A stretch of 46,808 nt of DNA from an uncultured Lentisphaerota bacterium. Its GTDB lineage: Bacteria; Verrucomicrobiota; Kiritimatiellia; RFP12; UBA1067. Where the stretch lies: positions 1-46,808 of the forward strand of contig CAMKJU010000024.1 in NCBI GenBank assembly GCA_946413265.1, read 5' to 3'. Of this stretch, positions 9,820 to 29,350 are shown in pieces; within the stretch, counting starts at the first letter, position 1, and each line of letters opens with the position of its first letter. The position numbers were made by a program, and so were the translations under genes. The notes beneath the pieces were generated by a model. The model saw only the letters and a list, made by a program, of their open reading frames with translations, searched no databases and had not been told where the DNA came from.

Positions 9820-10113
9820 TCAGACAAGGTTGAGGATGCCAGAGAAACCTGTGATGTCCAGCACCTCCCGAACGGCTTCCTGCGCGTTGGCGATCTGCAG
9901 TTCTCCGCCCTTGGCAAGCATCTTTTTATGTGAGGCGAGCAGGAGTCGGAGCCCTGCCGAGCTCATGTACGGGACGCCCGCAAGGTCGATCACCACGCAA
10001 GTCGCATCGCCGAAGTTCAGTGACGCCTCGAGCTCGGGGGCCGTGACCGTGTCAACCCGTCCGCTGACCGCGATGGTCATCCGGGTTCCTTCTGTAGTTG
10101 TTTTAATCTCCAT
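9820..10113 (-). CDS. STAS-domain anti-sigma-factor-antagonist-like protein
   Basis: A 97-residue single STAS domain of SpoIIAA/RsbV type. Visible are the N-terminal strand TIAVSGRVDT, the VVIDLAGVPYMSSAGLR block whose Ser52 (or Ser51) is in the usual phosphorylation position, and the ending ITGFSGILNLV. Members of this family switch partners: the unphosphorylated form binds and titrates a kinase/anti-sigma partner, and phosphorylation releases it. The start overlaps the end of the phosphatase-kinase gene by 11 nt, with GGAAAA as ribosome site, so it is translationally coupled to its likely enzyme. No sigma factor gene is visible in the window. Confidence 0.9.
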   Translation of the reverse strand: MEIKTTTEGTRMTIAVSGRVDTVTAPELEASLNFGDATCVVIDLAGVPYMSSAGLRLLLASHKKMLAKGGELQIANAQEAVREVLDITGFSGILNLV

Positions 10114-12130
10114 AGTCTTTTCCTATTGTAAGTATGTTGTTGCCGTTGCGCCGCCTGTAGGTGACGGGCGACATCGTTTTCTTGACGATCAGGATTCCAA
10201 GTCCGCCGGCTTCGCGCTCCGCAGCGCTGAGCGTCGTGTCGGGGTCGCGGTGGATGAGCGGATCGAATGGCTTTCCGTCGTCGGAGATGACAAGGCGCAC
10301 TCCCTCCGGATTGTGCGTGAGCACGACGGACAGCGACCAGCGCGTGGCGCCGGAATAGCGCACGATGTTGGCGAAGATTTCGTCGGCCGCTACGAGAAGC
10401 TTGTTCTTGGCCTTTGCGGGCACCGGCTTGAGCGCGGCGGCGAGGTCGTCCGTGGCGCGCGCAAGATCCTCCATCGTCGGAGCGTATTCGCGGGTGACGA
10501 CGTCCGGTTCGCCGCGATAGCGTATCAGGAGCTGCGTGCAGTCGTCCGCCTGCTCGACGTCCGCCGCATACCGGCGCACGTCCGCCAACACGGCGTCAAG
10601 GACGTCTTTCCCATGCCGGCTCGTATCCGAAAGGGCCTTGAGCATCCTCTCCTCTCCGTAGAGGTTCCCAGATTCGTCCGGTTGCTCGACTATGCCATCC
10701 GTGTATAGGTAGATTTCGTCGCCCGGCTTAAGCCACATCTCGCCGGTACGGTAACGGATTCCAGACATTGCGCCGAGCGCAAGCGAGGGACGCGACTTAA
10801 GGAGCTCCGCCTTGCCGCCGCGCAGCACGACCGGCGGATTGTGCCCCGCGTTCACGAACGTCACGTGCCCCGTCCGCGTGTTGAGCTCGCCGGCCCAAGC
10901 CGTGACGAACGTGCAGGAGGAATTGCCCTCGCTGAGCGCGTCGTTCACCTCCTCGAACGCCTGCGCGATCGGCTTGCCCGTCTGCTCGGCGCCCTTGAGG
11001 AGCGTCTTCGCGCGCATCATGAACATCGCCGCCGGAACGCCCTTCCCGCTCACGTCGGCGACGAGGAATAGCAGGCGGTCCTTCCCGATGAAGTAGAAGT
11101 CGTAGAAGTCGCCGCCTACCTCCTTCGCCGTCTCCATCGACGCCCAGATGTCGAATCGCGTCTCGTCCGGGAACGGCGGGAACACGTTCGGCAGCGCTGA
11201 GAGCTGGATGTCCGTCGCCATCTTCATCTCCTTTGCCGCCTGCGCGCGCATCTGTTGTCGGACGAACGCGGAGATGACGAAGCCGACGAGCAGCGCCACG
11301 AACACGAGCGCCACGCCGTTCAGCAAGGCCGTCGAGCCTACGAGGACGTCGCGCTGCACCGCGGCAGATCCCTTCGGTATCATCACGTAGACGGGGAAGC
11401 TCTCGATTTCCTTGCACTTCCAGTAGAAGAAATCCCCGTCTGGTTCCTGGAACTGCGTACCCTCGCGGTTCGGCTCCTCGTAGTCGGAGAGGACGAGTCC
11501 GGAAGGAGTGGTGACCACGATGCCGCCCGTTCCGCCGACGTGCCAATTGCGGAAGAGGTCCACGCAGGTGGAGCGCGCAAGCGACTGCAGGGCCTTCGCG
11601 TCGCATCCGATCTCGAAGAATCCGCCGGCGTGCCGCCACACTCCCACGAACTTGCGCCAGTTGCCGTTCGCAGGGTTGCTGCGGAACGGCTGGCAGTACT
11701 CAGTGTACCTGCCGTCTACGAGGCCCATCATTTCGTTTGCGACCTTGTCGTCGGTTGCGGCGAAGTTGAAGGCCGGCCTTCCGGGGCGCGCGAGGTAGTC
11801 GTCCACGGACGAACGCACGATGTCGCCCTTCTCGTCTGCGATGCTGACCTCGGTGACGCGCAGCTCGCGTGCGAGCTTCTGCATTGAGGCCGGATCGTCA
11901 GGGTGTCCGTCCTCAAGCTGCTCCCTGGCCGCCATGCACACGAGCACGAGCCGCTCGTTGACGCAATCGGCGAGCTCGTCCTGCACGTTGTCGAACGTGC
12001 GGTCGATGAGCGCGTACGCGTCGCGCTCGGATAGACGGTCGTGCAGGAACCACGAGAAGGCCAGCGACAGCAGGAACGCCGCAAGCACGCTTAATATGAG
12101 CTTGAGGTTCAGGCTTCGGCGATTGGTCAT
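10103..12130 (-). CDS. Membrane PP2C/SpoIIE-type phosphatase fused to an RsbW-like HATPase kinase domain
   Basis: 675 residues. Transmembrane segments at about 10-29 and 262-290 frame an extracytoplasmic sensor region (30-260, Cache-like by position only). A short coiled linker (291-310) leads to the SpoIIE/RsbU phosphatase domain (about 312-540) with metal ligands in GGDFYD (339-344), ADVSGKG (358-364), YTDGI (476-480) and DDCT (529-532). A C-terminal HATPase_c domain (545-670) shows the N box DEIFANIVRY (583-592), DDGKPFDP (617-624) and GGLGILI (642-648), as in RsbW/SpoIIAB kinases. Thus one protein carries both the phosphatase and the kinase expected to act on the adjacent STAS protein, under control of a periplasmic signal. 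It overlaps the upstream gene by ATGA and the STAS gene by 11 nt. Confidence 0.9.
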   Translation of the reverse strand: MTNRRSLNLKLILSVLAAFLLSLAFSWFLHDRLSERDAYALIDRTFDNVQDELADCVNERLVLVCMAAREQLEDGHPDDPASMQKLARELRVTEVSIADEKGDIVRSSVDDYLARPGRPAFNFAATDDKVANEMMGLVDGRYTEYCQPFRSNPANGNWRKFVGVWRHAGGFFEIGCDAKALQSLARSTCVDLFRNWHVGGTGGIVVTTPSGLVLSDYEEPNREGTQFQEPDGDFFYWKCKEIESFPVYVMIPKGSAAVQRDVLVGSTALLNGVALVFVALLVGFVISAFVRQQMRAQAAKEMKMATDIQLSALPNVFPPFPDETRFDIWASMETAKEVGGDFYDFYFIGKDRLLFLVADVSGKGVPAAMFMMRAKTLLKGAEQTGKPIAQAFEEVNDALSEGNSSCTFVTAWAGELNTRTGHVTFVNAGHNPPVVLRGGKAELLKSRPSLALGAMSGIRYRTGEMWLKPGDEIYLYTDGIVEQPDESGNLYGEERMLKALSDTSRHGKDVLDAVLADVRRYAADVEQADDCTQLLIRYRGEPDVVTREYAPTMEDLARATDDLAAALKPVPAKAKNKLLVAADEIFANIVRYSGATRWSLSVVLTHNPEGVRLVISDDGKPFDPLIHRDPDTTLSAAEREAGGLGILIVKKTMSPVTYRRRNGNNILTIGKDYGD

Positions 12131-12834
12131 TTCGCACCCCCCTCCGCAATCACGGCGTTTGCGGCGGCGAGCACGTCGGGCCTCCGCTTGTCCACGGCAA
12201 CTCCATATCCATCGCGCGTCTCGAACGGCGTAATGGAGAAGCGTCCGCTGGATTTCTCTGCTAATTTCCTGAGCGGGATGTCGTCGAGGAATATGGCGTC
12301 TATCTCGCCGCTCTCAAGCGCGGCCACTGCCTCCACGAGACCCTTGTAGCGCATGGGATCGCCTCCGTGGCAGCTGATGTAGAAATCCTGCACGGTGTCG
12401 GTCTTGACCCCTACGTTCAGCGTGTCGACCTGCGACATGCGCGGCTTCGGATCCCCGCTCCTGTACAGGAAGCACGATCCGCCGAAGGCGTACGGCGCCG
12501 AGAAGTTCACGTCGCGCTGGCGTGCTTCGTTTATGGTGATTGTCGCAATGCCGAAGTCCGCCGTGCCCGCCTTGAGCCGCGGCAGGATGTCAGGGAACAT
12601 GACTTTCTCCACAACGAGCCCGCGGCCCATCTTCGCCGCGATCCGCCGCGCAAGGTCAATGTCCGTACCTACGACCTCACCTGAAGCGTTCGTGTATGAG
12701 GTCGGCGGCTCCGTCGGGTTGGTGATGAACACGAGCGGACGCGACGCGTCGGCGATGCGCGGATCGACGCTTTGCGCGGAACGGTCCGAACAGCCGACGA
12801 TGGCGACAAGCGCCAGAAAAGACAATATTCTCAT
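12127..12834 (-). CDS. Family 3 solute-binding lipoprotein (amino-acid-type)
   Basis: 235 residues with lipobox AIVGC, giving lipid-modified Cys15. The mature part has the SBP_bac_3 order: ITNPTEPPTSYTN, then GTDIDLARRIAAKMGR, DILPRLKAGTADFGIATITIN, R-x-VNFSAPYAF, and the second-lobe LESGEIDAIFLDDIPL. Such proteins bind amino acids or similar small polar solutes, either for an ABC importer or as sensor subunits. No importer permease or ATPase is nearby; instead the gene overlaps, by ATGA at each end, the MATE-fusion gene and the membrane phosphatase gene. A sensing role for the phosphatase or a supply role for the transporter are both possible. Confidence 0.88.
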   Translation of the reverse strand: MRILSFLALVAIVGCSDRSAQSVDPRIADASRPLVFITNPTEPPTSYTNASGEVVGTDIDLARRIAAKMGRGLVVEKVMFPDILPRLKAGTADFGIATITINEARQRDVNFSAPYAFGGSCFLYRSGDPKPRMSQVDTLNVGVKTDTVQDFYISCHGGDPMRYKGLVEAVAALESGEIDAIFLDDIPLRKLAEKSSGRFSITPFETRDGYGVAVDKRRPDVLAAANAVIAEGGAK

Positions 12835-14525
12835 AACTTGAAAACGTTCCTGTTGAATCCAGTAGTTGTGAGGTTGCGGCGGACAGGAATCGCCGTCATC
12901 AGGTTGGAGACGAGATAGCCGCGGAGCGAGGACACGCGCGCGTCGGCGTCAGTGATGTTGAAAATCACGCCGTCGTCGCGGAGGACGATCATAAGCCCGT
13001 CGTTGAGATCTACCGTCACCTCGGCCTTGACCCGCCTCCCCGAATTGCGGTCGTGAACGACCATCAACGCCTCCTCCACGAGGAGCGCGGCCTTCGACGC
13101 GCGACGCCCCATGACGCCATTCGCTCCGAGATGCGCCCCTACGGACGCCGAGACGCCGCAGATGGACACAGGGTCTAGTTCAAGGTCGAATGCGCGCAAT
13201 GCAGCCTCACGGCCCTTTGGCAGGAGGAACGGGAAACCGCTACGTCCCCCTCTCGCCAGCACGTACAGGGCGACAAGACCCAGCGCCAACGCCGGGGCCA
13301 AGCCGAGCGCGCCCCATACGCCATGCGCCCCCCAGCATGAACCGAACAGGGGGAAGAGCGCAACGGGCAGACCGAATACGGCGAGAATCGTCATAATGGA
13401 CGAAAGCCTTTCCCGCCCGATGAACACGTAATATGAATTGAACAGCAGCACGAGCGAAAGACTCGGAAGCGATGCGGATACGATGCGCACCGCCAAGCGG
13501 GCCTCGGGAACCGTCGCCGGACTGCTGATGCCAACCAAGGAGAGCATCAGCCCGGGGAATGCAAGCAACAGCAACATGACGCCGCCGCCTTCAACCAGTG
13601 ACGCCACAAGCGCCGCGTGCATCACGCGCTTCGTCAGAACAGGATTCTTCTCGCCGATGTACACGCTTGCAAGCGGCTGTGCGGCGTTTGCGACGCCGTT
13701 GAACATCTCGGAGATTCCGATCGTCATCACGACTACGGCGAGAACTGGAAGCATTTCCGAACCGAACTTCGCGATCACGTATGCGTTGAGGGCGAACATG
13801 AGGGCCGCCTTGCCGATGTTCTTGCTGGCGTCGCCGAACGACTTGCCGGAAATCTTGAGGATGTCGGCGAATATGAAATGACGCGACCAGCCCAGCATGC
13901 ATCCCTTCCTGCGGAAATGGAACAGCAGCACGACGATGGCGGCGAGCGAGCCCAGCCCCGTGCCGACCGCGCAGCCGGCCGCGCCGTACGCCATGGTCAG
14001 AGGCACGGACATAAGGCAGTTCCCGAGCAGCTGCGCGAGGTAGGAACAGAACGACAGCCGCGCGTCGCCGTCCGCGTAGCACATCGCCCCAAGATAGAAC
14101 GCGAGCGGCTGCAACGCCGCAGCCGGCAGGAACCACAGCCAGTACGAGGCGGCCATGCTCGACACTGCCTGCGACGCCCCGAAGGCGGCGATGACCGGCG
14201 TGCGCACGGCGGCAAGCACCGCAGCGGTAAGCAGACCGAATGCGACCGCCGAGATTGTGCCAAGCGTGAAGTATCCTTGAGCCCGACGCACGTGCAGCGC
14301 GCCAAGTTCCGTCGCGAACAAAACGCTCGTGCCGACTGTCACCATCATGCCGACGAACGTGACTAACTCGAACACGAGCTGCATAAGGTTGACCGCCGAA
14401 AGCCCGGTCTCGCCGAGGATGTGACCGCAGATGATCGAGTCGGACAGCCCCATCAGGAATTCCGCCGCCATAGCGAATGTCGCGGCTGGCAGGAATGAAT
14501 TGAATTTGGATGTGGCAAAAGTCAT
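12831..14525 (-). CDS. MATE-family transporter with C-terminal HATPase-like domain
   Basis: The probable start is ATG 14523-14525, overlapping the stop of a short upstream ORF (ATGA); the frame is open further upstream, but only with a TTG start or a poorly placed ATG. Residues 1 to about 425 give the 12 membrane segments of a MATE antiporter (ATFAMAAEFLMGLSDSIICG near the start; SMAASYWLWFLPAAALQPLA; SEMFNGVANAAQPLASVYIG in the second half). Residues about 440-564 are soluble and resemble a degenerate anti-sigma-type ATPase domain: LLVEEALMVVHDRN (482-494) in N-box position, with the usual Asn absent, and LRDDGVIFNITD (515-526) in G1-box position. MATE proteins export small molecules using sodium or proton gradients. 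The soluble domain plus the phosphatase/STAS neighbours suggest regulated transport or signalling from the transporter. Confidence 0.85.
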   Translation of the reverse strand: MTFATSKFNSFLPAATFAMAAEFLMGLSDSIICGHILGETGLSAVNLMQLVFELVTFVGMMVTVGTSVLFATELGALHVRRAQGYFTLGTISAVAFGLLTAAVLAAVRTPVIAAFGASQAVSSMAASYWLWFLPAAALQPLAFYLGAMCYADGDARLSFCSYLAQLLGNCLMSVPLTMAYGAAGCAVGTGLGSLAAIVVLLFHFRRKGCMLGWSRHFIFADILKISGKSFGDASKNIGKAALMFALNAYVIAKFGSEMLPVLAVVVMTIGISEMFNGVANAAQPLASVYIGEKNPVLTKRVMHAALVASLVEGGGVMLLLLAFPGLMLSLVGISSPATVPEARLAVRIVSASLPSLSLVLLFNSYYVFIGRERLSSIMTILAVFGLPVALFPLFGSCWGAHGVWGALGLAPALALGLVALYVLARGGRSGFPFLLPKGREAALRAFDLELDPVSICGVSASVGAHLGANGVMGRRASKAALLVEEALMVVHDRNSGRRVKAEVTVDLNDGLMIVLRDDGVIFNITDADARVSSLRGYLVSNLMTAIPVRRNLTTTGFNRNVFKL

Positions 14526-14632
14526 GCAAACACGCGCAACTGCCTCAGGAAACATCCCCAGGGCTTCAATGATCTTCCGACCCTGGCCTCGTCCGGCCAA
14601 GACTCGTCATGCAGTTCTTGTTTCGTCATCAT
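14522..14632 (-). CDS. Short leader ORF (36 codons) coupled to the MATE-fusion gene
   Basis: Begins with two ATG codons (14630-14632 first), eight bases after AAGGAATAAG, which overlaps the stop of the methylase gene. The product starts MMTKQELHDESWPDEARV and has three Trp/Cys-containing turns but no recognised domain. Its TGA overlaps the ATG of the MATE gene. The MATE start has no good ribosome site of its own, so translation through this ORF may deliver ribosomes to it. It could instead mark a frameshift at the MATE N-terminus, because the MATE frame is open in parallel. Confidence 0.45.
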   Translation of the reverse strand: MMTKQELHDESWPDEARVGRSLKPWGCFLRQLRVFA

Positions 14633-18022: not shown

Positions 18023-21000
18023 CTACCGAATGAGGATGGTGATGCCTGCGGGCTTCGAATTGCCAATCGCGAGGCGGCCCCCCTTCACCGTGAGCGTGAA
18101 GTTCGCGGAATAGTCGTTGTCATCGGCATCCATCACCGTCATGGTCGCGTCGGGGAGGTCGGCGTCGGTCAGGCCGTTGATTACGCCGGTAAGGTAGTAG
18201 GCCTTGCGCGTGGGCTTCGCATCGAACATGACCTTGACGCTCTTCAAGCCCGCAAAAGTGGCTGCCGTGGCATTCGCAAACGTGGCCGCCGGGAGTTCGG
18301 TGGTTCTCGCGCCCGCACCCGTCACTACCCAGCAGTTGTGGTCGCCGGCGAACTCCCACGCACCCGCGAGCGTGCCCGTGCCCTTCAGCGTGCCGTAGAT
18401 CGACATCGGCAGCGTGCCGCTCGAGGTGAGCGTCGCGTCCGCGCCGAGTTCGAGATCATTGTAGATGCCCGAAGGCTCGAGAACGGCGATGTCGCCCAGC
18501 GTCGCCGCGAGCCTCAGGTTCGTCTCGTCGAAGCGCTTCGCCTCCGTCTCGCCGGGCGCGGTAAAGCGCAGCGTGTGGCCGCCGTTGACGGACGAGGCCG
18601 GTCCCCATCCGCCGCCGCCGCTCTCGGCCACGCGCACCTCCCAGCGGTGCCAGCCCGCCGTGAGATTCACGCTGCATGTCGCCGGCACGTTCCACTCCAT
18701 GCTGCGGGCCACCTCCACGCCGTCAATCTTGAAGAGGCTGAAGTCGTCGTAGCAGAGGCTGAACGCCCAGTCGCCCGTCTTGTCGTCCTCGACCCTGAAC
18801 CAACCCTCGAACTTGTTGGCCTTGCCCCAGACGTAGGTCTTCCACGAACCCGCGTCGGAAGACGTGTTGCACTTGTACATCGCCTCCAGCGTATCGACGC
18901 ACTTGATGCTCGCCCAGTCCTCCCGCTCGGACCAGTCGGCGTAGCCCGCACTGCAGTGGCTCCATACGGCGGCTTTGGCGCACGGGCGCACCTGAAGCTT
19001 CGTGCCGTCGCCGAAGTCCTCGCCGTCGGCGAACTTGACGTAGTTCCCGGCCGCGGTCGCCGTGGTCTCGCCCACAAAGACGCCGAGGCCCTTTCCGCCG
19101 CCCCAGCCGTCCGCCGAAGGCCCGCCGGGCTTGCCGCCGTCGTAAACCGCGAGCGTGAACTTGTGCCACCCCTCGGCCAGCACCATGGTACCGCGACCGA
19201 CCTGGCTCCACGAGGTGGTCTTGAACACCTGCGTTCCGTCCACGTCGAGGCGGATGTAGTCGTCGTAGTTCCCGGCGAACGTCCACTTGCCCGCCTTCTC
19301 CGCCGACACGTAGAACTCGCCGCGTCCGGCGACTACGGTGTTTCCGGCGATTGGGCTTGTGGTGAACTTCGTGTAAGCGAACGGGAAGAAATTGGCCGAG
19401 ACGAACGGATAGCTCCACCCGCTGCCGGCAACGTGGTCAAGCAGCCCGATTCCGGCGACGGCGTAGGCGTAGCGCGCATCTCCGTACTTCGCCACCTGGG
19501 CGTTCACGCCGGGCGCCAGCGTGAGGCCGCCGGCGAACGCCGATGCGTTGCGCAGGTCGTTCGCGCCCGTGTTCTCCACAGTGAGCTTGCCGAGCATCGC
19601 GCCCTGCATCCGATCGCTCCTCCTGTCGCCCTGGAAGTTGGCGGAGCCCTTCAGCGTCACATCGCTTGCACCGGAAAGTCCAGTATGCCAGTTCACGAGA
19701 TGCGATCCGAGGTCGAACGCCACCCTGCCGCCAGGCAGGTCGTGGCCGAAGAACATCGGAATGCCGTAGTCGGTGCCCCACGCCGCCACGTTCACCATGT
19801 CGCCGTTCCGGAAGTCGAACCTGGTGACGCCCGGAATGCAGGCGCCCAGCACGCCGGCCGAACCGATCTCGAGGCGCCCGCCCTCCATCATGAACCAGTG
19901 GCGGCCGTCCGCCGCGCCCGTGCCGTTGCCATAGCCGAACGTGTGCGTCGCGTTCGGCGCAGTCGTGCCTCTACCGCTGCGGTTGGCCACGAACCCCTTG
20001 GTCTTCAGCACGCCGCCTTCGCGCAGGTACATCTCGCCACGCGGCGCGTCCATCGTGCAGTACACCGTCCCGGCGGAACAGTCAAGTTCTCCTGCGACAT
20101 CAATCGTATGCGTCTGCGCGCTGGTCGGAGCCGTACTCCAATGTCCAACACGGACGTCGCCGCCGTTTCTGATCGTGACCTTCGCCCCGGAATCGATGAT
20201 GATGCGTCCGCGAGACGCGGCTGCGCCGCCGTCCGCAGTGGCAAGAAACTTGACGGAAACATCGGACCCCTGCTTGAGCTGGAGAGTTCCGGCGCGTCCG
20301 TTGTTGAGGCCCACGCGCAGACTACCAACCGAGCCGGTCATCTTCATCGCCACGCCGAATTCGTTGTTGTTCGTGGTACTGTACACGTAAGTCGTGCCGG
20401 CGTCCGCCTGGTCGATGTTCACCGTTCCCGCGAGATCGACGATCTGCCCCGCGACGCGCGGGAGGATGTAGCTGCTGTTGCCGCCAAGGTTGAGGTTGTA
20501 CGCCTCGAACACGGGCGCGACGGCGCTTTCCAGAAGAAGCCCCGCGTCGCCGCCCGTAACTTTCGCGGTTATCGTCTCCGCCGTCATGCCGTCCTTCACG
20601 TAAAGAGAGCTGGACGTGACTGGAATCGTAAGAGAACTCTCCTGCACCGCGCCTGCAAGGCGCATCTGGCCGCCCGCGACTTCGTAGGAAGAGCCTGCGA
20701 TATCGCCCTTGAGGATATGGGTGCCGGCGGTGGTGCGCACAGTTCCCGCGTTCTGGACGCCGCCCTCGTAGTCCACCGTCGCGGTGCCCACCAGCTCCGC
20801 CGTGGCGCCGGCGGCGACGGCGAGCGGGCTTTTCACCGTGCTGGTGCCGCTCTGCGCGGAGATCTGCGCCGTGCCGGAATCGACGTTGACCACGGCGCCC
20901 GTGGTGACGACGGCCTGGTAGAGGCGGAGGCCCGCGCCGTCCGCCACATGGATGCCGTGCGGCACGTTGTATTCGCCGCCGGTCTGCTCGATCTGCAGCA

Positions 21001-24000
21001 TGCCGCCGAGGACGTTGATACGCCCGATGTTTGCGGCGACGTTGTGGAATACGAGGAATTTGGTCGTGTCGACGTTCAGCACGGCGTTCGTGTCGCCGCT
21101 GATCGTCGAGGTGGCGCGGTCCGGGTCGGCGGCGTTCACGCGCACGTCGAAGCGCTGCGAACCTCCAAGCGTACCGGATCCTTCCACCGTGATTTTCGAG
21201 AAGGAACCCTGGGAGGGTTCGGCGGAACCCGTGTTGACGATCGAGCCGCCGCGCAAAAGCTCGATGTCCTTCCTGTGCGAAATCGCCGACCTCGCAGTGG
21301 TGTTCGCCGGCGTGTTGATGTCGAGCGTGCCGCCGTCCAACTTGATTTTCCCCGCGCTCGTTCCAAGGGCGTAGCCACCGGCATTCGGCCCCAGGCGCAG
21401 CGTACCGTTGGAGACGACGATGTCCTGGTCGCCGAGGTTCGGACCGGAGAGCGAGACGGTTCCCGTCGTGTCGATGACAATCGGATCGCTACCCGCGAGC
21501 GTGCCGGTGCCGGTGAAATTGTAGTCGCCCGTTCCCGTGATCGACATCGGCCCGACGGAATACGTGTCGTTCACGGCGATGTTGCCGGAGACGCTCTCGC
21601 CGCCGTCGAACGACGTCGCGAGGTAGCCGACGAACGGACCCTTCGTCACGCCGTCGGAGTAGAGCCAGTTCGCGGAGTTCCACGCGAGGTCGGAGGCGTC
21701 CTCGGGACGCCACATGAGGCTCGTCGTCGCAGAAGCGGCCTGCGCAACCGTCATCACGAGCTTGCCGTCAACCACGGAGAACGCCGCCTCCGCGCCGGGC
21801 GCGGTCTGCGCCGTCGCCGCGAACTGCGACGCGGACGTAATGCCGTCCGCCGCGTCGATCACGGTGTACGTGCCAAGCGGCAGCGCCCGCGCATCGACGT
21901 CCACCGCGAGCGTCGTGCCGGCGGGGATCGTGACGGAACCGGTGGTGGAAACCATCGCGCCGTCCGCAGGTGGATTGGAAATGGTGATCGACGCTTCCTC
22001 GGAGAACGCGAGGTTCTGCGTGCCGCTGATCGTGCCGTCAACCACAAGTTCGCTCCTGAACGTGTACGTGTTGTCCGCCGCGGCGGCTGTCGCGTCCGCG
22101 CCCATCCACTTCGCGGCGAGGTACGCCTCGATCGCCTGGCGGTCGGCTTCGGACAGCACCTCGTCCAGCACGATCAGTTCCGAAAGGTCGCGCCCGGAGC
22201 TGCGCGCATTGGTCGTGCGGTCGCGCGAGAGCTGGTTGGACTGCGCACCCGCAGACGTGACGATCGTGTAGATGTGGCGGTCGGACGGCGGAACTGTCGT
22301 GCGCGGCGCGGCAACGAGCTCGCCGTCCTTGTAGAACGAGCAGTTCTGCATTCCCCACTGGCTGTCGTACGATCCGTCCGTGTTGCGGTGGAAGTGGCAG
22401 GCGGTGTCATCACCGAGCCACTGGTTGAATCCACCGGAGGTCGACCGGATCGCCATCGCCTGGAAAACCGTCCTGATTCCCGTGATGCGCGTGAAGTTCA
22501 TGTCGATCTGCGCGCCGACCGCGCCCATCAGGTAGGCGGGAACGCCGTCCGCGACGCCGAGCGAACCGTAGTTCGCCATGTAGGATGTCGCCGTGCGTCC
22601 GTAGGAGGAAAGGTCCCTCCACAGCGTGACGTATCCGAAGGTCTTGTCCTTGAACACGAAGTTCACGGCGTCTGAGGCGTCGAGCCAGATGAGCGCCTTC
22701 GCCTTGAGGTACGGCGCAATCCACGCGGCGGCATCGTATGCGGCCACGCCTGTCGTGACAACGGTGCTTGCGCCGTCGAGCGAGGTTGCGGCGGGCGTTC
22801 CAAGCGGCACGCCGTTGTGCATCGCCTGTGCGAAGACCTTCGAGACGTCAAACGACGAATCGACGCCCGTGAGGAGCGTCGCCGCGGTCTCGGCGGTAAG
22901 CCCTTCCACGGCGATTGTCGTGTTGGAAATAACGGACGATCCAGCGGCGAGCGCAACGGGCGCATTTGTTGCAATCGCGAGCGACGCGCCGGCGAACACG
23001 ACCTGGAACGTCGGCGCCGCATCGAAAAACGCGCAAACGCCCTCGCCTACGAGGCGGACGGCGGCGGTTGAATTGGTGATCACGGGAAGCTTCTGCACGA
23101 GCGCGTGGTTGGCGCGGGCGACGTCCGCATCGGCGCGAAACGCGATCTCCGGCGCCGACGTCTCCACCGTGAACGTCTGCGTCGCGCCTTTGAGGGCGAC
23201 CGCCGCCTTCGATACGAATATGAGCTTGCCGTCCATGGACGGGCTTACCCCCACTTCGATGAATGCGTTGGCGCACGTCCCGGCGGCATTGCCGTCGTCC
23301 GCCGTCGCCGCCGTCTGCACCATGTTTCCGTGGCTGCCGGCAAAGCCTCCGGCGAGATTGAATCGCGTGTTCTCGAAGCAGGCGACGATCAGGTTTTCGT
23401 TCTTGTCGCGCGCCCTGAGCGGCGCTTCGCACATCACGTCGCCGTCCACCACGAGGCGGCAGCCGCTGTCGAATAAGTCGAACGCACCGTTCCCGTCGCC
23501 CTTGCCGATCACGCGCGCGCCGTCGTGGAGATAGACCGTGTCCTCCACGCCCACGCTGGTGCGGAAAGTCTGCGCGTTGAAGGTTCCGTAGACGTGGATT
23601 GCAAACGCCGCATGGTAGTAGCAGGAGTCAGAGCGGTTTATGTCGAGCTGTGCGCCTTGGCGGATGATCAGATTGCCCGACATCGTCTTGTTGCCGAACG
23701 AGAAATACGCCGTGCCAGTTTCGATGTCGAGCGTGCCGTTCACGTTCACCGTCGTCGTGCCCGAAACGGTGAGGTTGCCGCGTGTGGTAAGCGTGGCGCC
23801 TTCAAAGACCGTGAGCGCGCCCGACCATGTCGCGCCGAGACCGGCGTCGATGACGGTGTCGCTCGCAACCGTCAGCGCCTTGCCCCATTCGGGGGCGGAC
23901 GGCGTGATCGTCATGCCGCTCGTCGTGAAACAACCTGACAGGTCGTTCGTCAGGAAGGCGTTGTTGACCGTGTCATAGACGCCGATGACATTGTCCGAAA

Positions 24001-24583
24001 GGCGCTTGGCGGGCACGAGGTCGAGGCGGAGCGTGCCGCTCGAATTGCGCAATCTGAACGAATAGAGGCGGTAGGAGCCATAGTTGTTGAGTCCGTCGTC
24101 GATGTTGTTGTTGTGCGAGGCGAAGATCGCGAGTTCCGAGCCGACCGTGTATGAGTCGGTGGTATTCGAGACCGTCGTCTCCTCCGTGTGCGTCACGTCG
24201 TTCGAGATCGTGCTGACGCCTGCGCCGTAGTCGGCGACGATCGAGTAGCGCGTATTGGCGACGAACACGGCTGCGCTCGCCTTCTGCCCGGCCGTGCCTT
24301 CGTTACGGTCGAAGCGGAATGTGGCGCCGATCATGAAGCCCGTGAACTGCTTCGACGTGGCCGTGCGCGCGCACCAGAGGTTCTGGTTGACGCTCACGGT
24401 CGTCGGCATCCACGTCATCTCCACCTTGTCGTTGTAGGCGGGCGTGACGCCGGTCTTGATCCGGCACTGTCCGTTCGCCTGGATGTACTCGAGCTGCTGG
24501 TACTCCGTCGGCAACGCCGCGGCAAGTGGGAGGGCGAGCGTCCCCGCGCCCACAAGAGTCAGTGTGCAGATAAGTTTTCTCAT
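18023..24583 (-). CDS. Giant secreted passenger-type protein with LamG-like and PA14-like domains (2186 aa)
   Basis: ATG 24581-24583 follows AAGGAGG at ideal spacing. A signal peptide (1 to about 24) is followed by an N-terminal LamG-like domain (about 27-235) ending in the recognisable LVPAKRLSDNVIGVYDT block, then beta-rich autotransporter-like repeats (GALTVFEGATLTTRGNLTVSG). A second ConA-like domain lies at about 630-830 with KALIWLDASDAVNF and a closing LAAKWMG. Beta-helix-like repeats at about 900-1700 (GTGTLAGS, NGTLRLGPNAGG) precede two PA14-like modules (about 1750-1855 and 1880-2005), each with a YDD-plus-DG motif. No C-terminal translocator barrel is seen; the chain ends in GITILIR. 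It is probably a surface adhesin or glycan-binding protein; the ligand is unknown. The gene lies just downstream of an IS630 insertion, with only 44 bp between. Confidence 0.8.
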   Translation of the reverse strand: MRKLICTLTLVGAGTLALPLAAALPTEYQQLEYIQANGQCRIKTGVTPAYNDKVEMTWMPTTVSVNQNLWCARTATSKQFTGFMIGATFRFDRNEGTAGQKASAAVFVANTRYSIVADYGAGVSTISNDVTHTEETTVSNTTDSYTVGSELAIFASHNNNIDDGLNNYGSYRLYSFRLRNSSGTLRLDLVPAKRLSDNVIGVYDTVNNAFLTNDLSGCFTTSGMTITPSAPEWGKALTVASDTVIDAGLGATWSGALTVFEGATLTTRGNLTVSGTTTVNVNGTLDIETGTAYFSFGNKTMSGNLIIRQGAQLDINRSDSCYYHAAFAIHVYGTFNAQTFRTSVGVEDTVYLHDGARVIGKGDGNGAFDLFDSGCRLVVDGDVMCEAPLRARDKNENLIVACFENTRFNLAGGFAGSHGNMVQTAATADDGNAAGTCANAFIEVGVSPSMDGKLIFVSKAAVALKGATQTFTVETSAPEIAFRADADVARANHALVQKLPVITNSTAAVRLVGEGVCAFFDAAPTFQVVFAGASLAIATNAPVALAAGSSVISNTTIAVEGLTAETAATLLTGVDSSFDVSKVFAQAMHNGVPLGTPAATSLDGASTVVTTGVAAYDAAAWIAPYLKAKALIWLDASDAVNFVFKDKTFGYVTLWRDLSSYGRTATSYMANYGSLGVADGVPAYLMGAVGAQIDMNFTRITGIRTVFQAMAIRSTSGGFNQWLGDDTACHFHRNTDGSYDSQWGMQNCSFYKDGELVAAPRTTVPPSDRHIYTIVTSAGAQSNQLSRDRTTNARSSGRDLSELIVLDEVLSEADRQAIEAYLAAKWMGADATAAAADNTYTFRSELVVDGTISGTQNLAFSEEASITISNPPADGAMVSTTGSVTIPAGTTLAVDVDARALPLGTYTVIDAADGITSASQFAATAQTAPGAEAAFSVVDGKLVMTVAQAASATTSLMWRPEDASDLAWNSANWLYSDGVTKGPFVGYLATSFDGGESVSGNIAVNDTYSVGPMSITGTGDYNFTGTGTLAGSDPIVIDTTGTVSLSGPNLGDQDIVVSNGTLRLGPNAGGYALGTSAGKIKLDGGTLDINTPANTTARSAISHRKDIELLRGGSIVNTGSAEPSQGSFSKITVEGSGTLGGSQRFDVRVNAADPDRATSTISGDTNAVLNVDTTKFLVFHNVAANIGRINVLGGMLQIEQTGGEYNVPHGIHVADGAGLRLYQAVVTTGAVVNVDSGTAQISAQSGTSTVKSPLAVAAGATAELVGTATVDYEGGVQNAGTVRTTAGTHILKGDIAGSSYEVAGGQMRLAGAVQESSLTIPVTSSSLYVKDGMTAETITAKVTGGDAGLLLESAVAPVFEAYNLNLGGNSSYILPRVAGQIVDLAGTVNIDQADAGTTYVYSTTNNNEFGVAMKMTGSVGSLRVGLNNGRAGTLQLKQGSDVSVKFLATADGGAAASRGRIIIDSGAKVTIRNGGDVRVGHWSTAPTSAQTHTIDVAGELDCSAGTVYCTMDAPRGEMYLREGGVLKTKGFVANRSGRGTTAPNATHTFGYGNGTGAADGRHWFMMEGGRLEIGSAGVLGACIPGVTRFDFRNGDMVNVAAWGTDYGIPMFFGHDLPGGRVAFDLGSHLVNWHTGLSGASDVTLKGSANFQGDRRSDRMQGAMLGKLTVENTGANDLRNASAFAGGLTLAPGVNAQVAKYGDARYAYAVAGIGLLDHVAGSGWSYPFVSANFFPFAYTKFTTSPIAGNTVVAGRGEFYVSAEKAGKWTFAGNYDDYIRLDVDGTQVFKTTSWSQVGRGTMVLAEGWHKFTLAVYDGGKPGGPSADGWGGGKGLGVFVGETTATAAGNYVKFADGEDFGDGTKLQVRPCAKAAVWSHCSAGYADWSEREDWASIKCVDTLEAMYKCNTSSDAGSWKTYVWGKANKFEGWFRVEDDKTGDWAFSLCYDDFSLFKIDGVEVARSMEWNVPATCSVNLTAGWHRWEVRVAESGGGGWGPASSVNGGHTLRFTAPGETEAKRFDETNLRLAATLGDIAVLEPSGIYNDLELGADATLTSSGTLPMSIYGTLKGTGTLAGAWEFAGDHNCWVVTGAGARTTELPAATFANATAATFAGLKSVKVMFDAKPTRKAYYLTGVINGLTDADLPDATMTVMDADDNDYSANFTLTVKGGRLAIGNSKPAGITILIR

Positions 24584-24627
24584 TGCTTTTCCTCCTTGTT
24601 CACTTGGTCGGGCAGTTTCGATAAAAC

Positions 24628-25757
24628 TATAGAGGCGGCAAAGAAATATAGTGATTTTTCTGCGGAGATTTGATATACTATGCGGCATGGAAAATCAGAT
24701 AAAGATGGACGCTCGGAAGTCGCCTGCGGCACTGTTCGAGATTCGCAAGCAAATAGTCCGCCTTCACAAGAAAGGTGCGGGACCAATGGCGATAAAGGAG
24801 CAGACCGGCATAAGCTGGGGCGCAATCCGCAAGGCCATAGACCTGTACGAGTCTGGCGGCATAAAGGCGCTGAAGCCGAAGCGCCGTGGCTGCAAGAAAG
24901 GCGCATCGCGCACGCTCACGAGGGAGCAGGAGAAGCAGGTTCAGAAGGACATCTGCGACAAGCGCCCCGAGCAGCTGAAGATGGATTTCGCCCTATGGAC
25001 ACGGGAGGCGGTCCTCATATACATCCGCGAACACTTCGGAATCGAGATGCCCGTGCGCACGGTCGGCGAGTACCTCAAACGCTGGGGTTTCACGCCACAG
25101 AAGCCGATCAAGGTTGCCTACGAGCAAAAGCCGGAAGCCGTGAAGAAGTGGCTTGCAGAGGAGTACCCTGCGATTTCCGCGCGCGCAAAGACGGAAAAAG
25201 CCGAGATCCACTGGGCGGACGAGACGGCGGTGATGAATACGGACGTGCGCGGGCGGTCGTATTCGCCTCGCGGCACAACGCCGACGACCCGTGCGGTGTG
25301 GGGGTCGCGGCAGAGATTCTCAATGATTTCATCGGTGAACAACCAGGGCAAATGCCATTGGATGATAATAGACGGCGCGTTCAATGCAGACAGGCTAATC
25401 GAGTTTATGAAAAGCCTCGTAAAGGACGTTCCGCGAAAGGTGTTCTTGGTCATGGACAACCTGAAAGTCCATCACTGCAAGCCGGTGAAGGAATGGCTGG
25501 AGAAGAACGCGGCGCGAATCGAGGTGTTTTATCTCCCAAGCTACAGTCCGGAGCTGAACCCGGACGAAAGGCTGAATGCAGACTTGAAACACGCTATCAC
25601 CACGAGCGTTCCGAGACGGACGAAGGATGGTTTGCTGAAGAAAACAACCGAACACATGAACATGGTGAGAGCATCACCAGAGCGAGTGAAGTCCTATTTC
25701 CAGGACAAGCACGTAGCCTATGCCGCAGACTCACAATAATTCATTGCCGGAGCAATA
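24628..25757 (+). mobile_element. IS630-family insertion sequence with imperfect terminal repeats and TA target duplication
   Basis: Left end 24628-24665 (TATAGAGGCGGCAAAG...CTGCGG) and the reverse complement of 25723-25757 (TATTGCTCCGGCAATG...CTGCGG) align over about 35 bp with mismatches. Both begin at a TA dinucleotide (24628-24629 and 25756-25757), the normal IS630 target. The interior of about 1.13 kb holds one DDE transposase whose stop lies in the right repeat, as is usual. It appears intact and may be active. It is inserted 44 bp upstream of the start of the 2186-residue passenger gene, between two similar 24-bp sequences. Confidence 0.85.
24687..25739 (+). CDS. IS630-family transposase
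   Basis: 350 residues, complete. An N-terminal helix-turn-helix region (about 12-75; GPMAIKEQTGISWGAIRKA) is followed by a winged segment and a DDE catalytic domain with Asp178 (HWADETAV), Asp257 (LVMDNLKVHH) and Glu294 (SPELNPDERLN), as in IS630/Tc1-mariner relatives. It would cut and join the element's ends at TA targets. ATG 24687 is the best start in frame; there is no strong ribosome site, and a TATACT lies only about 8 bp before it, so expression is probably weak. No frameshift is seen. Confidence 0.93.
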   Translation: MENQIKMDARKSPAALFEIRKQIVRLHKKGAGPMAIKEQTGISWGAIRKAIDLYESGGIKALKPKRRGCKKGASRTLTREQEKQVQKDICDKRPEQLKMDFALWTREAVLIYIREHFGIEMPVRTVGEYLKRWGFTPQKPIKVAYEQKPEAVKKWLAEEYPAISARAKTEKAEIHWADETAVMNTDVRGRSYSPRGTTPTTRAVWGSRQRFSMISSVNNQGKCHWMIIDGAFNADRLIEFMKSLVKDVPRKVFLVMDNLKVHHCKPVKEWLEKNAARIEVFYLPSYSPELNPDERLNADLKHAITTSVPRRTKDGLLKKTTEHMNMVRASPERVKSYFQDKHVAYAADSQ

Positions 25758-26118: not shown

Positions 26119-29088
26119 CTACTTGACGATGATCATCATGCCCGTGATGATATAAATGCCGTCGTCCTTCTTGACGATGCGGTACTTCCTTCCGGCGTCC
26201 TCCGCACTGCGAACGAACGTGAGCGTGTCGAGGTTCGTCGGCGCGGTCGTCCACCCGACGATCTTCGAAGGATGTCTGCTCGTGCCGAGCTTCAGCGCGA
26301 TCGTCGCGTTGTCGGCGAAGGAAATCTTGCGCGCATTGGACGTGCCTTCCAGACTGAACGTTCCCGTGTTCTCCGAGAGGTCGAGCGTCGCGCCGTCCGC
26401 GAGCCTGATGTTCGGGAAATTCGGCAGGAGACACTTGAACGTACCGCTGACGTAGAGCGTGTTGGCGCCGTAATGCGTCGCGCCGGGATCGTTGAACGTG
26501 AGATTGCGGATGCCGGTGACATCGGCTGACATGTGGCACGTCTTGAGCGTCAAATCAACGCCGGTCGCGTCGGTGTTGCCGTCGATGAAGCAAACGTAGC
26601 GCACATCTCCCGTTTCCTCGGACACCTTGATTGATCCGTTCGTGATCGTGCAGTTCTCGAAGTAGAAGTAGTTGCCAAACAACTTGATGTCAAGTTCGTG
26701 TCCGCCGAGGTTCATGCGCGACCGTCCAAGGGTTCCGTACTCGTACGCGCGCATTGCATAGGAATTTGTAATCGCGAAAAGCGAGTCCTTCGAGAGCAAC
26801 ACCGTTCCGAGCAGCGAGTCGGCGACATTGTGAGCGGCGCGCCCGCCGGAATTCACGAACGTGCCGCCGTCCATCACAAGCGGATACTTTCCGAACGAGT
26901 ACTGCCCGTTGGCGTCGAACGTCGCGCCTTCGCGAACGATTATCTGCGGCACGCGCCCGAAATAGACGTCGTTGATGTTGCTCGACTTCACAGCCGACGT
27001 CGAATATTGGCGGAACTGGAGCGTCCATTCGCCCGGCTCCATTATCTCGACGACCTTGCCGTAATAGCGGAAACTGCCGTTGTCCGCCGTCACGGACATG
27101 ACGTGGTTCGTTTCGCCGTTGTGTATCAGCAGCACATGGAACGGCTCGCCTCGTCTCTGAGATTCGCCGGCGCATTGCGAACACGTGAACCACAGCGCAT
27201 ACGCGCCGGGATCGTCGATGTGCATCGTCTGCTCGAACCAGGCATCACCGAGGTTGTTATAGGTACGCAGATATGCAGAGTATTTGCCGACAAAAGAACC
27301 CGCATCCGCCCATGTGCCATTGGCGGTCGAAAGCCCCACGTTCACGCCATCGCACGTCCAGTGCGGATTTTCCGTCCAATTCGTTGAACTCGCGTACTGG
27401 TAGCTTCCACTTATGCTTCCCTCGTCGAACGAACCGTTCTTCAGGAGGTTGTTCTCCTCCAGCACGGGCGCGAACACAACGTCGTCGATGCTATTCGCAA
27501 GAACCTTGTTCCCTGCGTCCTGATAGAACTGGAGCGTGTATTCGCCCGCCTCTGTGATTTCAACGCGGCGGCTGAAACTCTGGCGCGCCGCGCTGGTAAC
27601 GGCGCCTAGATTGACGGTCATATTCGTCGCGCCACCATGGATGAGATACGCCCGCAGCGTCGCACCCTTGCGGCTGTTGTTGGGAACGGCCATGTATGCA
27701 AACGAGAACCGGTATTGGCCGGGATCGGCAATGCGGAACGTCTGCTCGGCGTGCGCCGGGCCAATCGTCGCATCAGCTCCATTCGACCGCAGGTACATCG
27801 CATACTTGCCGATGTCGTAGCCAGTATTGACCCAGGTGCCATTTGCCGTCGTAAGCCCCACGTTTTTCCCGTCGCACGTCCATCCGGGATTCTCCGGCCA
27901 TTTCGTTGAAAAGGCGTACATGTAAGTTGACCCGTTCGTGATCGAGCCGGCGTCAAACGATCCATTGAAGAGAAGGTTGTCGTTGCAGAGACCGAACGGC
28001 TGAGAGATGCCGTATGTGCCTGCCTTCAGGACTCCGCCCTCAACGTCCGTGCCGCCGGCGTATGTCTGCTTGTACTGCGACGCGACGAGCGTACCTTCGC
28101 CGGCCTTCACGAGCTTTACGTTCCCTGCGATGCTGACGGCGTCGTTTTCAACAGTCGCGCCTGTCGCGACGTTCATGCGCAGCTCCGAAAGCGTCGTCGA
28201 GGTGTTCACGATCCGTCCGCCCTCGCCCGCATATACGCCGCCGCCCGTGAACGTACCGGTGGCTGGCGGAAGGAATGTGCCGGAGACGAGATTGTACATG
28301 CCGATCACGTCGTCCGATTCGTCCGACGTCCCCTTCGTGTCCTTTGCGGGGACGATGAGGCACTTCAGCGTGCCGTCGTCTCTACTATTCACCTTGAACC
28401 AGTAGAAGTTGCCCTTGCAGCGGTAATTCGAGTTCTCCGTGAACGTAATCCCAGCATCATCATAGGCACCACCCGAAAGGAGCGCGAACGGCCCCGGCGG
28501 CGCGGCGACCGGATCGGCCGTAAAAGATGAGCCCGCGTTGATGCCTTCCGCCGGAACCCTGGCGGCGGCGCTGCTGCCGCCGCCGTTCATGACAATGAGA
28601 TAGTCTTTGCCGGACGTGAGTGAAAGGTTCGCAGACTTCTGATTACCACCATGGTCGATGCGGACGTTTGTCGTGGTACTATTGTTCCTCATCATGGTGA
28701 ACGACTGCTTGCTACCGTCGAGACGCGTGCAGAAGAGGAACTGGAATATCTTGCTGTTGTCGGCAAAGCGGAATTTCATCACCACGCGGTCGGAGGCCAA
28801 CGGCGTGTAGTCCGTCATCACGTACTGCGTCCTGTCGGCCGTGAGGTATCCAAGAATCTGGTACCGGCCGTCGATCAGCGAGTTCCCGCCGCCCGCGAGC
28901 GCGGACACCGTGAGGTTGTGTCCGTTGAGATCGACTGTCACGCCCGGCGCGACGGTGAGCGTGCCGTCAACCGTCTCGTCCGCCGAAAGCGTGTAGTCGG
29001 AGGTGATCACACGGTCCGCCGCCCACGACGGCAACGCCGCCGCCACGCAGATTGCCGCAATCGCGGTACGGATCATCTTTGTTTTCAT
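26119..29088 (-). CDS. Large secreted surface protein with LamG-like domain and duplicated galactose-binding-like module (989 aa)
   Basis: ATG 29086-29088 with AAAGGA upstream; the frame is open further up but only through the leader repeat. Signal peptide of about 23 residues ending ALPSWA. A short beta repeat (SADETVDGTLTVAPGVTVDL) precedes a LamG-like region (about 60-300) with LIVPAKDTKGTSDESDDVIG, like the N-terminus of the 2186-residue protein. Two tandem modules of about 165 residues (about 368-535 and 547-713) share NLLFNGSFD, W-T-CDGKNVGL-TANGTW, KY-x-YLR and GEYTLQF; they resemble galactose-binding-like beta-sandwiches. Beta-helix-like sequence follows to a last stretch ending TGMMIIVK. 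It is likely cell-surface exposed and glycan binding, with no catalytic motif seen. It is preceded by leader copy B. Confidence 0.8.
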   Translation of the reverse strand: MKTKMIRTAIAAICVAAALPSWAADRVITSDYTLSADETVDGTLTVAPGVTVDLNGHNLTVSALAGGGNSLIDGRYQILGYLTADRTQYVMTDYTPLASDRVVMKFRFADNSKIFQFLFCTRLDGSKQSFTMMRNNSTTTNVRIDHGGNQKSANLSLTSGKDYLIVMNGGGSSAAARVPAEGINAGSSFTADPVAAPPGPFALLSGGAYDDAGITFTENSNYRCKGNFYWFKVNSRDDGTLKCLIVPAKDTKGTSDESDDVIGMYNLVSGTFLPPATGTFTGGGVYAGEGGRIVNTSTTLSELRMNVATGATVENDAVSIAGNVKLVKAGEGTLVASQYKQTYAGGTDVEGGVLKAGTYGISQPFGLCNDNLLFNGSFDAGSITNGSTYMYAFSTKWPENPGWTCDGKNVGLTTANGTWVNTGYDIGKYAMYLRSNGADATIGPAHAEQTFRIADPGQYRFSFAYMAVPNNSRKGATLRAYLIHGGATNMTVNLGAVTSAARQSFSRRVEITEAGEYTLQFYQDAGNKVLANSIDDVVFAPVLEENNLLKNGSFDEGSISGSYQYASSTNWTENPHWTCDGVNVGLSTANGTWADAGSFVGKYSAYLRTYNNLGDAWFEQTMHIDDPGAYALWFTCSQCAGESQRRGEPFHVLLIHNGETNHVMSVTADNGSFRYYGKVVEIMEPGEWTLQFRQYSTSAVKSSNINDVYFGRVPQIIVREGATFDANGQYSFGKYPLVMDGGTFVNSGGRAAHNVADSLLGTVLLSKDSLFAITNSYAMRAYEYGTLGRSRMNLGGHELDIKLFGNYFYFENCTITNGSIKVSEETGDVRYVCFIDGNTDATGVDLTLKTCHMSADVTGIRNLTFNDPGATHYGANTLYVSGTFKCLLPNFPNIRLADGATLDLSENTGTFSLEGTSNARKISFADNATIALKLGTSRHPSKIVGWTTAPTNLDTLTFVRSAEDAGRKYRIVKKDDGIYIITGMMIIVK

Positions 29089-29106
29089 GCCTATTTCCTT
29101 TCTTTT

Positions 29107-29350
29107 GTTGAAGATTGGGCGAGTGAAAATCTTGCTGTCGTGCGCGAAACCCACTTGCTGTTGTACGCTTGCTGTCATGCGCTAAAAGACAGCAAGCGTA
29201 CAACAACAAGATGTGCACGGCGTTGTTTCCAATGCCGTTCCAAGCCTCCACACTGGCGTCTTTTGCGATTTGCCATTCAAAGCAGTTGGTCTCCCCATTG
29301 AAGGTTGGTGGTATGTTAGCATACCCTCCCGTGATTCGTCAATCCCCCGG
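29107..29350 (-). repeat. Leader repeat, copy B (complete), upstream of the 989-residue surface protein
   Basis: Full member of the leader family with promoter (29313-29342), a middle segment, and a hairpin whose 23-nt arms 29154-29176 and 29188-29210 match at 22 of 23 positions with an 11-nt loop. It ends about 18 bp before the start codon at 29088, so the hairpin is in the mRNA 5' leader. An additional GCTGTC-containing segment between hairpin and start is not found in the other copies. Confidence 0.85.
29313..29342 (-). promoter_or_regulatory. Promoter in leader copy B
   Basis: TTGACG (29337-29342), 18-nt spacer, TAACAT (29313-29318), with TGC immediately before the -10 (extended -10). 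The same elements with identical spacing occur in copies D and E. It drives minus-strand transcription toward the 989-residue surface-protein gene, with a leader of about 215 nt. Confidence 0.7.

Follow-up and report, generated by a model that had tools for sequence, protein, structure and literature searches.

Partner switching has been described mainly as a means of freeing sigma factors, although a few other outputs are on record. The RsbU/RsbV/RsbW and SpoIIE/SpoIIAA/SpoIIAB systems share with the locus described here a PP2C phosphatase, a phosphosite serine in the STAS protein and an intact GHKL kinase within the module, and the fold of the transporter tail considered below is alike; here, however, no sigma factor is linked, and the second RsbW-like domain resides on a transporter and lacks the ATP-site motifs. 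The signalling parts are of the partner-switching kind, minus the linked sigma factor. Partner switches with non-sigma outputs include, in Pseudomonas aeruginosa, SiaABCD (PMC7647112, PMC8457831) and, in Vibrio fischeri, SypE/SypA (PMC8256260). Their output is a diguanylate cyclase or an unknown target in biofilm formation, whereas here it would be a transporter with a GHKL tail. Post-translational control of a transporter by a free STAS protein is exemplified by MlaFB, in which MlaB is bound to the ABC ATPase MlaF (PMC7367683). MlaFB is an ABC transporter without a GHKL tail, whereas the present system is built around a MATE transporter that has one. In SulP/SLC26 proteins, STAS is coupled to a transporter as it is here, but the domain is fused there and free here; unlike SulP/SLC26, which bear the STAS domain, our transporter bears a domain of the STAS-partner type. 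The MlaFB cluster is not known to include a PP2C phosphatase or a kinase. In the open-access literature searched, we found neither a GHKL receiver described on any secondary transporter, MATE or otherwise, nor a MATE-linked partner switch, which is weak evidence of absence.

The window, that is, the whole stretch of 46,808 nucleotides analysed here, carries on its minus strand (9820-14525) four genes that overlap successively by 4, 4 and 11 bases, just as the first-pass annotation had described:

12831..14525, minus strand: MATE transporter with a C-terminal RsbW-like probable pseudokinase tail; 564 aa from ATG 14525, the ORF opening at TTG 14600
12831..13235, minus strand: degenerate GHKL tail of the MATE (alignment of 33 tails, hhalign, AF2 and structure comparison)
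12127..12834, minus strand: SBP_bac_3 lipoprotein (Pfam 5.8e-24; lipobox ...AIVGC read from sequence)
10103..12130, minus strand: membrane sensor of 675 aa consisting of TM, extracytoplasmic region, TM, PP2C and HATPase (Pfam SpoIIE and HATPase_c_2; TMs read from sequence)
10517..11083, minus strand: SpoIIE/RsbU-type PP2C phosphatase domain of the sensor (Pfam SpoIIE, about 167-170 bits)
10124..10477, minus strand: RsbW-type kinase domain of the sensor (intact N-box, DEIFANIV, and GGLG lid in the alignment)
9820..10113, minus strand: single-domain STAS protein (Pfam STAS 1.8e-17; TIGR00377 above cut-off)

Each named domain of the block, the MATE tail excepted, was confirmed by Pfam or NCBIfam, so that the SBP_bac_3 protein, the combination of PP2C and HATPase in one sensor and the single-domain STAS protein of the earlier description all stand, as does the lack of a sigma factor among the block and the neighbouring ORFs scanned (part of the ORFs of the window). 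One coordinate had to be changed, the end of the block, previously set at 14632. The MATE most likely starts at ATG 14525 because the ATG at 14632 is in a different frame and the stretch of 25 codons preceding 14525 overlaps the vestige of a small upstream gene, an intact copy of which occurs in a further locus (L064:1230-1538); moreover, the MATEs of relatives begin at a Met equivalent to 14525. The decayed remnant of this small stand-alone gene lies at about 14632-14525, 5' of the MATE. The next gene upstream of the block encodes a D12 methyltransferase. Downstream, 31 bases separate the end of the STAS gene from the probable start of pyrH (9788, placed by the 258-aa length of the homologue in L035), which has the same orientation and is followed by frr. 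Elsewhere in the window, an IS630-type transposase (DDE_3; 24651-25739) lies between two large secreted repeat-rich proteins (18023-24688 and 26119-29178), the second of which has a weak PATR match.

In the transporter, two MatE stretches are detected by Pfam (1.8e-20), the AF2 model of the full-length protein shows a clear MATE fold (pLDDT 87, pTM 0.83), and the best Foldseek matches of this model are solved MATE structures. The DinF-type transporters 5c6n and 4lz6 share this membrane fold (TM-score 0.83 by target), but their chains, of about 446 residues, have no cytoplasmic GHKL tail. The window MATE shares 99% identity with one encoded on contig CADCOC010000104 (RUG14821); the closest relatives after that come from Kiritimatiellae MAGs of ruminant guts.

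The tail, of about 130 aa, comprises the residues beyond about 455 and had been annotated as an anti-sigma-type ATPase-like domain. Because Pfam detected no HATPase domain on it and a phmmer search of the PDB with the tail alone gave nothing useful, profile and fold comparison was needed. Alignment by hhalign of a profile of 33 tails with a profile of the linked kinase HATPases gave a probability of 90 (E 1.5e-6). The AF2 model of the tail, built with the 33 sequences (pTM 0.67; pLDDT 71 overall, falling to about 50 around the lid), has the topology b-a-a-b-b-a-b, and every one of the top 17 Foldseek matches to it is an entry for RsbW, SpoIIAB or a mycobacterial anti-SigF protein. VIA-align superimposed the model on RsbW 6m37 (Z 11.7, 2.3 A, 106 residues) and SpoIIAB 1th8 (Z 11.6, 3.0 A, 117 residues); its top ten matches are anti-sigma-type kinases or entries containing one, and the next match has a Z of 8.2. 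The tail is thus predicted to have the GHKL/Bergerat fold of the anti-sigma (RsbW/SpoIIAB) type, an assignment that rests on profile-profile comparison, the structure model and the tails of distant relatives, several of which, along with that of locus L051, score HATPase_c_2 above the Pfam cut-off. The N-box acidic residue and the RDDG box are kept in all 33 aligned tails, and the motifs SLR..LV..M and NRN are conserved as well. In every one of these tails, another residue stands in place of the N-box Asn and the GxGxG glycine lid is gone; because of these losses, the tail is probably a pseudokinase and not a normal ATPase. Hence, the anti-sigma-type, GHKL-like fold postulated in the first-pass annotation is found in the model, and normal ATPase function is improbable.

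The sensor, a single protein with strong matches to both SpoIIE (5.6e-49) and HATPase_c_2 (1.8e-16), presents the opposite picture. In the alignment, its HATPase and the stand-alone HATPases of relatives keep both the N-box Asn and the glycine lid. Since these motifs are intact in the sensor and lost in the tail, the sensor HATPase is the likely kinase of the module. The predicted substrate, the STAS protein, has Ser51/Ser52 at the usual phosphosite, invariant in an alignment of 19 sequences. The lipoprotein, which matches NCBIfam TIGR01096 at 5.4e-27, below the cut-off of that model, could plausibly sense a ligand. No cognate ABC permease or ATPase is present in the block or the adjoining genes, and amino-acid ABC uptake was rejected as the function of the block on this ground. 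The genome encodes only two STAS proteins. The other STAS gene (L126:5884-8261, contig 31) has its own sensor-PP2C-HATPase gene, and the pair is flanked by genes for FlhB/SctU-like and FliR/SctT-like export proteins (named from the sequence), an arrangement that recalls partner switches tied to type III secretion.

A motif scan of the genomes of about 85,000 species yielded 37 loci with a tailed MATE, mostly from Kiritimatiellae, with others from Clostridia/Bacillota (L092, L098) and Synergistales-labelled MAGs (L096, L097). Confinement of the four-gene neighbourhood to the window genome would have sunk the original proposal; in fact, the same order recurs in 12 further loci, in one of which (L067) the sensor reading frame is broken, four more (L062, L063, L072, L075) are consistent with it but truncated, and the linkage persists in at least six other gene orders. 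The latter include MATE-STAS-HATPase (L081, L083, L087), MATE-STAS-sensor (L093), STAS-HATPase-MATE (L094), MATE-STAS-SBP-sensor (L095), SBP-sensor-STAS-three genes-MATE (L089), MATE-three genes-sensor-STAS (L092) and plain MATE-STAS (L077, L079, L084), where no kinase or phosphatase is nearby. With linkage defined as a STAS, PP2C or HATPase gene within 8 kb of the MATE, and the loci found through a MATE sequence motif or profile and not through the neighbourhood, 28 of the 37 tailed MATEs are linked, as are 13 of 14 distant MATE-GHKL fusions, compared with 0 of 20 MATEs without a tail in related genomes. Fisher tests against these control MATEs gave P values of about 1e-8 each, which are indicative only, because related loci are not independent and the counts overstate their independence. 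At six tailed MATEs with usable flanks (L080, L082, L085, L090, L091, L096), a linked STAS, PP2C or HATPase gene is absent. In a partial Mantel test, co-divergence with STAS was 0.36 for the tail versus 0.29 for the membrane part; it is significant by permutation and not specific to the tail.

Because the order recurs, the linkage persists through rearrangement and the tail resembles RsbW/SpoIIAB, control of the MATE by STAS via the tail appears well motivated, and we consider it probable that the block is a partner-switching module with a MATE transporter as its output in place of a sigma factor. Under such a scheme, the sensor, probably aided by the orphan SBP_bac_3 lipoprotein, would read an extracytoplasmic ligand, and binding of the ligand to the lipoprotein, the sensor ectodomain or both would shift the balance between phosphatase and kinase acting on STAS serine 51/52. 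The kinase and PP2C domains of the sensor itself would set the phosphorylation state of STAS, and the unphosphorylated form would dock on the RsbW-like MATE tail and gate the transporter. The tail may be descended from a true STAS kinase that was fused to the transporter and then decayed into a docking domain. The domains, the tail fold, the loss of motifs in the tail, their integrity in the sensor and the linkage across gene orders are observed or predicted here; the STAS-tail binding, the direction of control, the ligand and the cargo are what we infer.

RsbW-like domains normally bind STAS, which permits control in either direction, and the tail might act as a STAS sink or reporter, such that the conformation of the transporter, and hence flux, sets the sequestration of STAS and the MATE feeds back on the sensor kinase and STAS, while the real output of this pair lies elsewhere in the cell. 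The second STAS-sensor pair of the genome, beside the FlhB- and FliR-like genes, leaves room for such other outputs. Nevertheless, we regard this arrangement as unlikely, given that the modules of L094 and L081 consist only of the MATE, STAS and a small HATPase, with no other output linked, and that conservation of the tail holds through different gene orders.

The genomic context of many relatives brings in nucleobase salvage. In 13 of the 37 loci and in no control locus, the block lies among genes for uracil phosphoribosyltransferase (upp), a xanthine/uracil permease or an apt-like second phosphoribosyltransferase, all three identities being confirmed by Pfam; in L070, these genes are tightly arranged on a single strand as upp-MATE-SBP-sensor-STAS-permease-apt. 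This suggests that the cargo or cue in these relatives is probably nucleobase-related. However, the window genome (93% complete assembly) yielded no Xan_ur permease, so the link is a lead on the cargo or cue, not a conclusion, and the notion that the window itself encodes nucleobase uptake is weakened. NCS2 permeases, to which Xan_ur belongs, are related in fold to the STAS-bearing SulP transporters, and one could envisage a regulator of the salvage operon in which STAS acts mainly on the permease, with the MATE tail as a shared docking site. The flanking genes just described speak for it, but we find this version rather improbable because the window genome keeps the module without a detectable permease and the Bacillota relatives have other neighbours. 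Separately, the Xan_ur permeases of L041, L042, L068, L080 and L089 carry an extra N-terminal region of ~100 aa with TerB-like character, as read from sequence, the sole Pfam hint being a weak TerB match in the neighbouring phosphoribosyltransferase of L089. The small stand-alone gene 5' of the MATE in L064 resembles this region.

Least probable of all is that the tail is a structural relic stabilising the MATE while the switch genes merely co-travel in a signalling operon that controls expression: some tailed MATEs do stand alone, but the tail is about as conserved as the whole protein (mean column identity 61% versus 62%) and no tail-less MATE shows the linkage.

The preferred reading, a transporter as the output of the switch, gains breadth from more distant proteins. 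Searches for the tail in Bacillota retrieved further MATE-GHKL fusions of about 570-610 aa. L152, a Bacillota locus, has genes for STAS, for a 436-aa protein, for a MATE whose tail is an intact kinase (N-box VNII, GGLG lid) and for PP2C; no further kinase occurs within 11 kb. Judged by its motifs, L152 has all three RsbU/V/W components, RsbW being carried by the transporter, and offers a hint at the origin of the tail of the window MATE. A second, distant MATE-GHKL operon (L051:4250-10328, on G034 contig 267) comprises HATPase, MATE-HATPase, a formyltransferase-like gene (read from sequence), PP2C and an SBP_bac_3-ABC permease fusion.

In five of the distant loci, the MATE-GHKL gene has next to it or close by a gene for STAS joined to an NRPS-type condensation domain (L149:5252-8562, L150:7808-11145, L151:5102-8421, L173:1355-8352, L180:4787-8247); scans covered the condensation part in L149, L173 and L180, and in L150 and L151 it was deduced from equal length. 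The fusion is directly upstream of the MATE-GHKL gene in L149-L151 and L180, and in L173 an adenylation-carrier-condensation protein intervenes. A link of these loci to gut pathways of the fatty-acid-amide type is possible (PMC13142362). Further neighbours of MATE-GHKL genes, GNAT (L175) and MBOAT (L179), are enzymes of the acyltransferase type, and in L134:5612-7912 and L135:6568-8853 the MATE is followed by a still more decayed tail and then a ~230-aa GNAT-like domain, read from sequence and without a Pfam match. With neighbours that differ among loci, the MATE-GHKL chassis appears to be the fixed part and the cargo perhaps the variable one. We tentatively propose, as a conjecture short of even odds, that MATE-GHKL fusions form a general class of phospho-switched exporters in which the L152-like active kinase is ancestral, pseudokinase forms such as that of the window receive STAS, and, in some lineages, STAS fused to the cargo-making enzyme (condensation domain) docks biosynthesis onto the exporter through the same STAS-GHKL contact. 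The original interpretation of the block anticipated the type of the tail domain and missed the pseudokinase state, the nucleobase-salvage neighbours and this wider family.

If the proposed scheme is correct, a secondary transporter that uses a kinase or its decayed form as a receiver would be under direct, rapid post-translational control, and the MATE tail would offer a testable case of a kinase turned docking domain. The distant STAS-condensation fusions would, in addition, make the system relevant to small-molecule export by gut bacteria.
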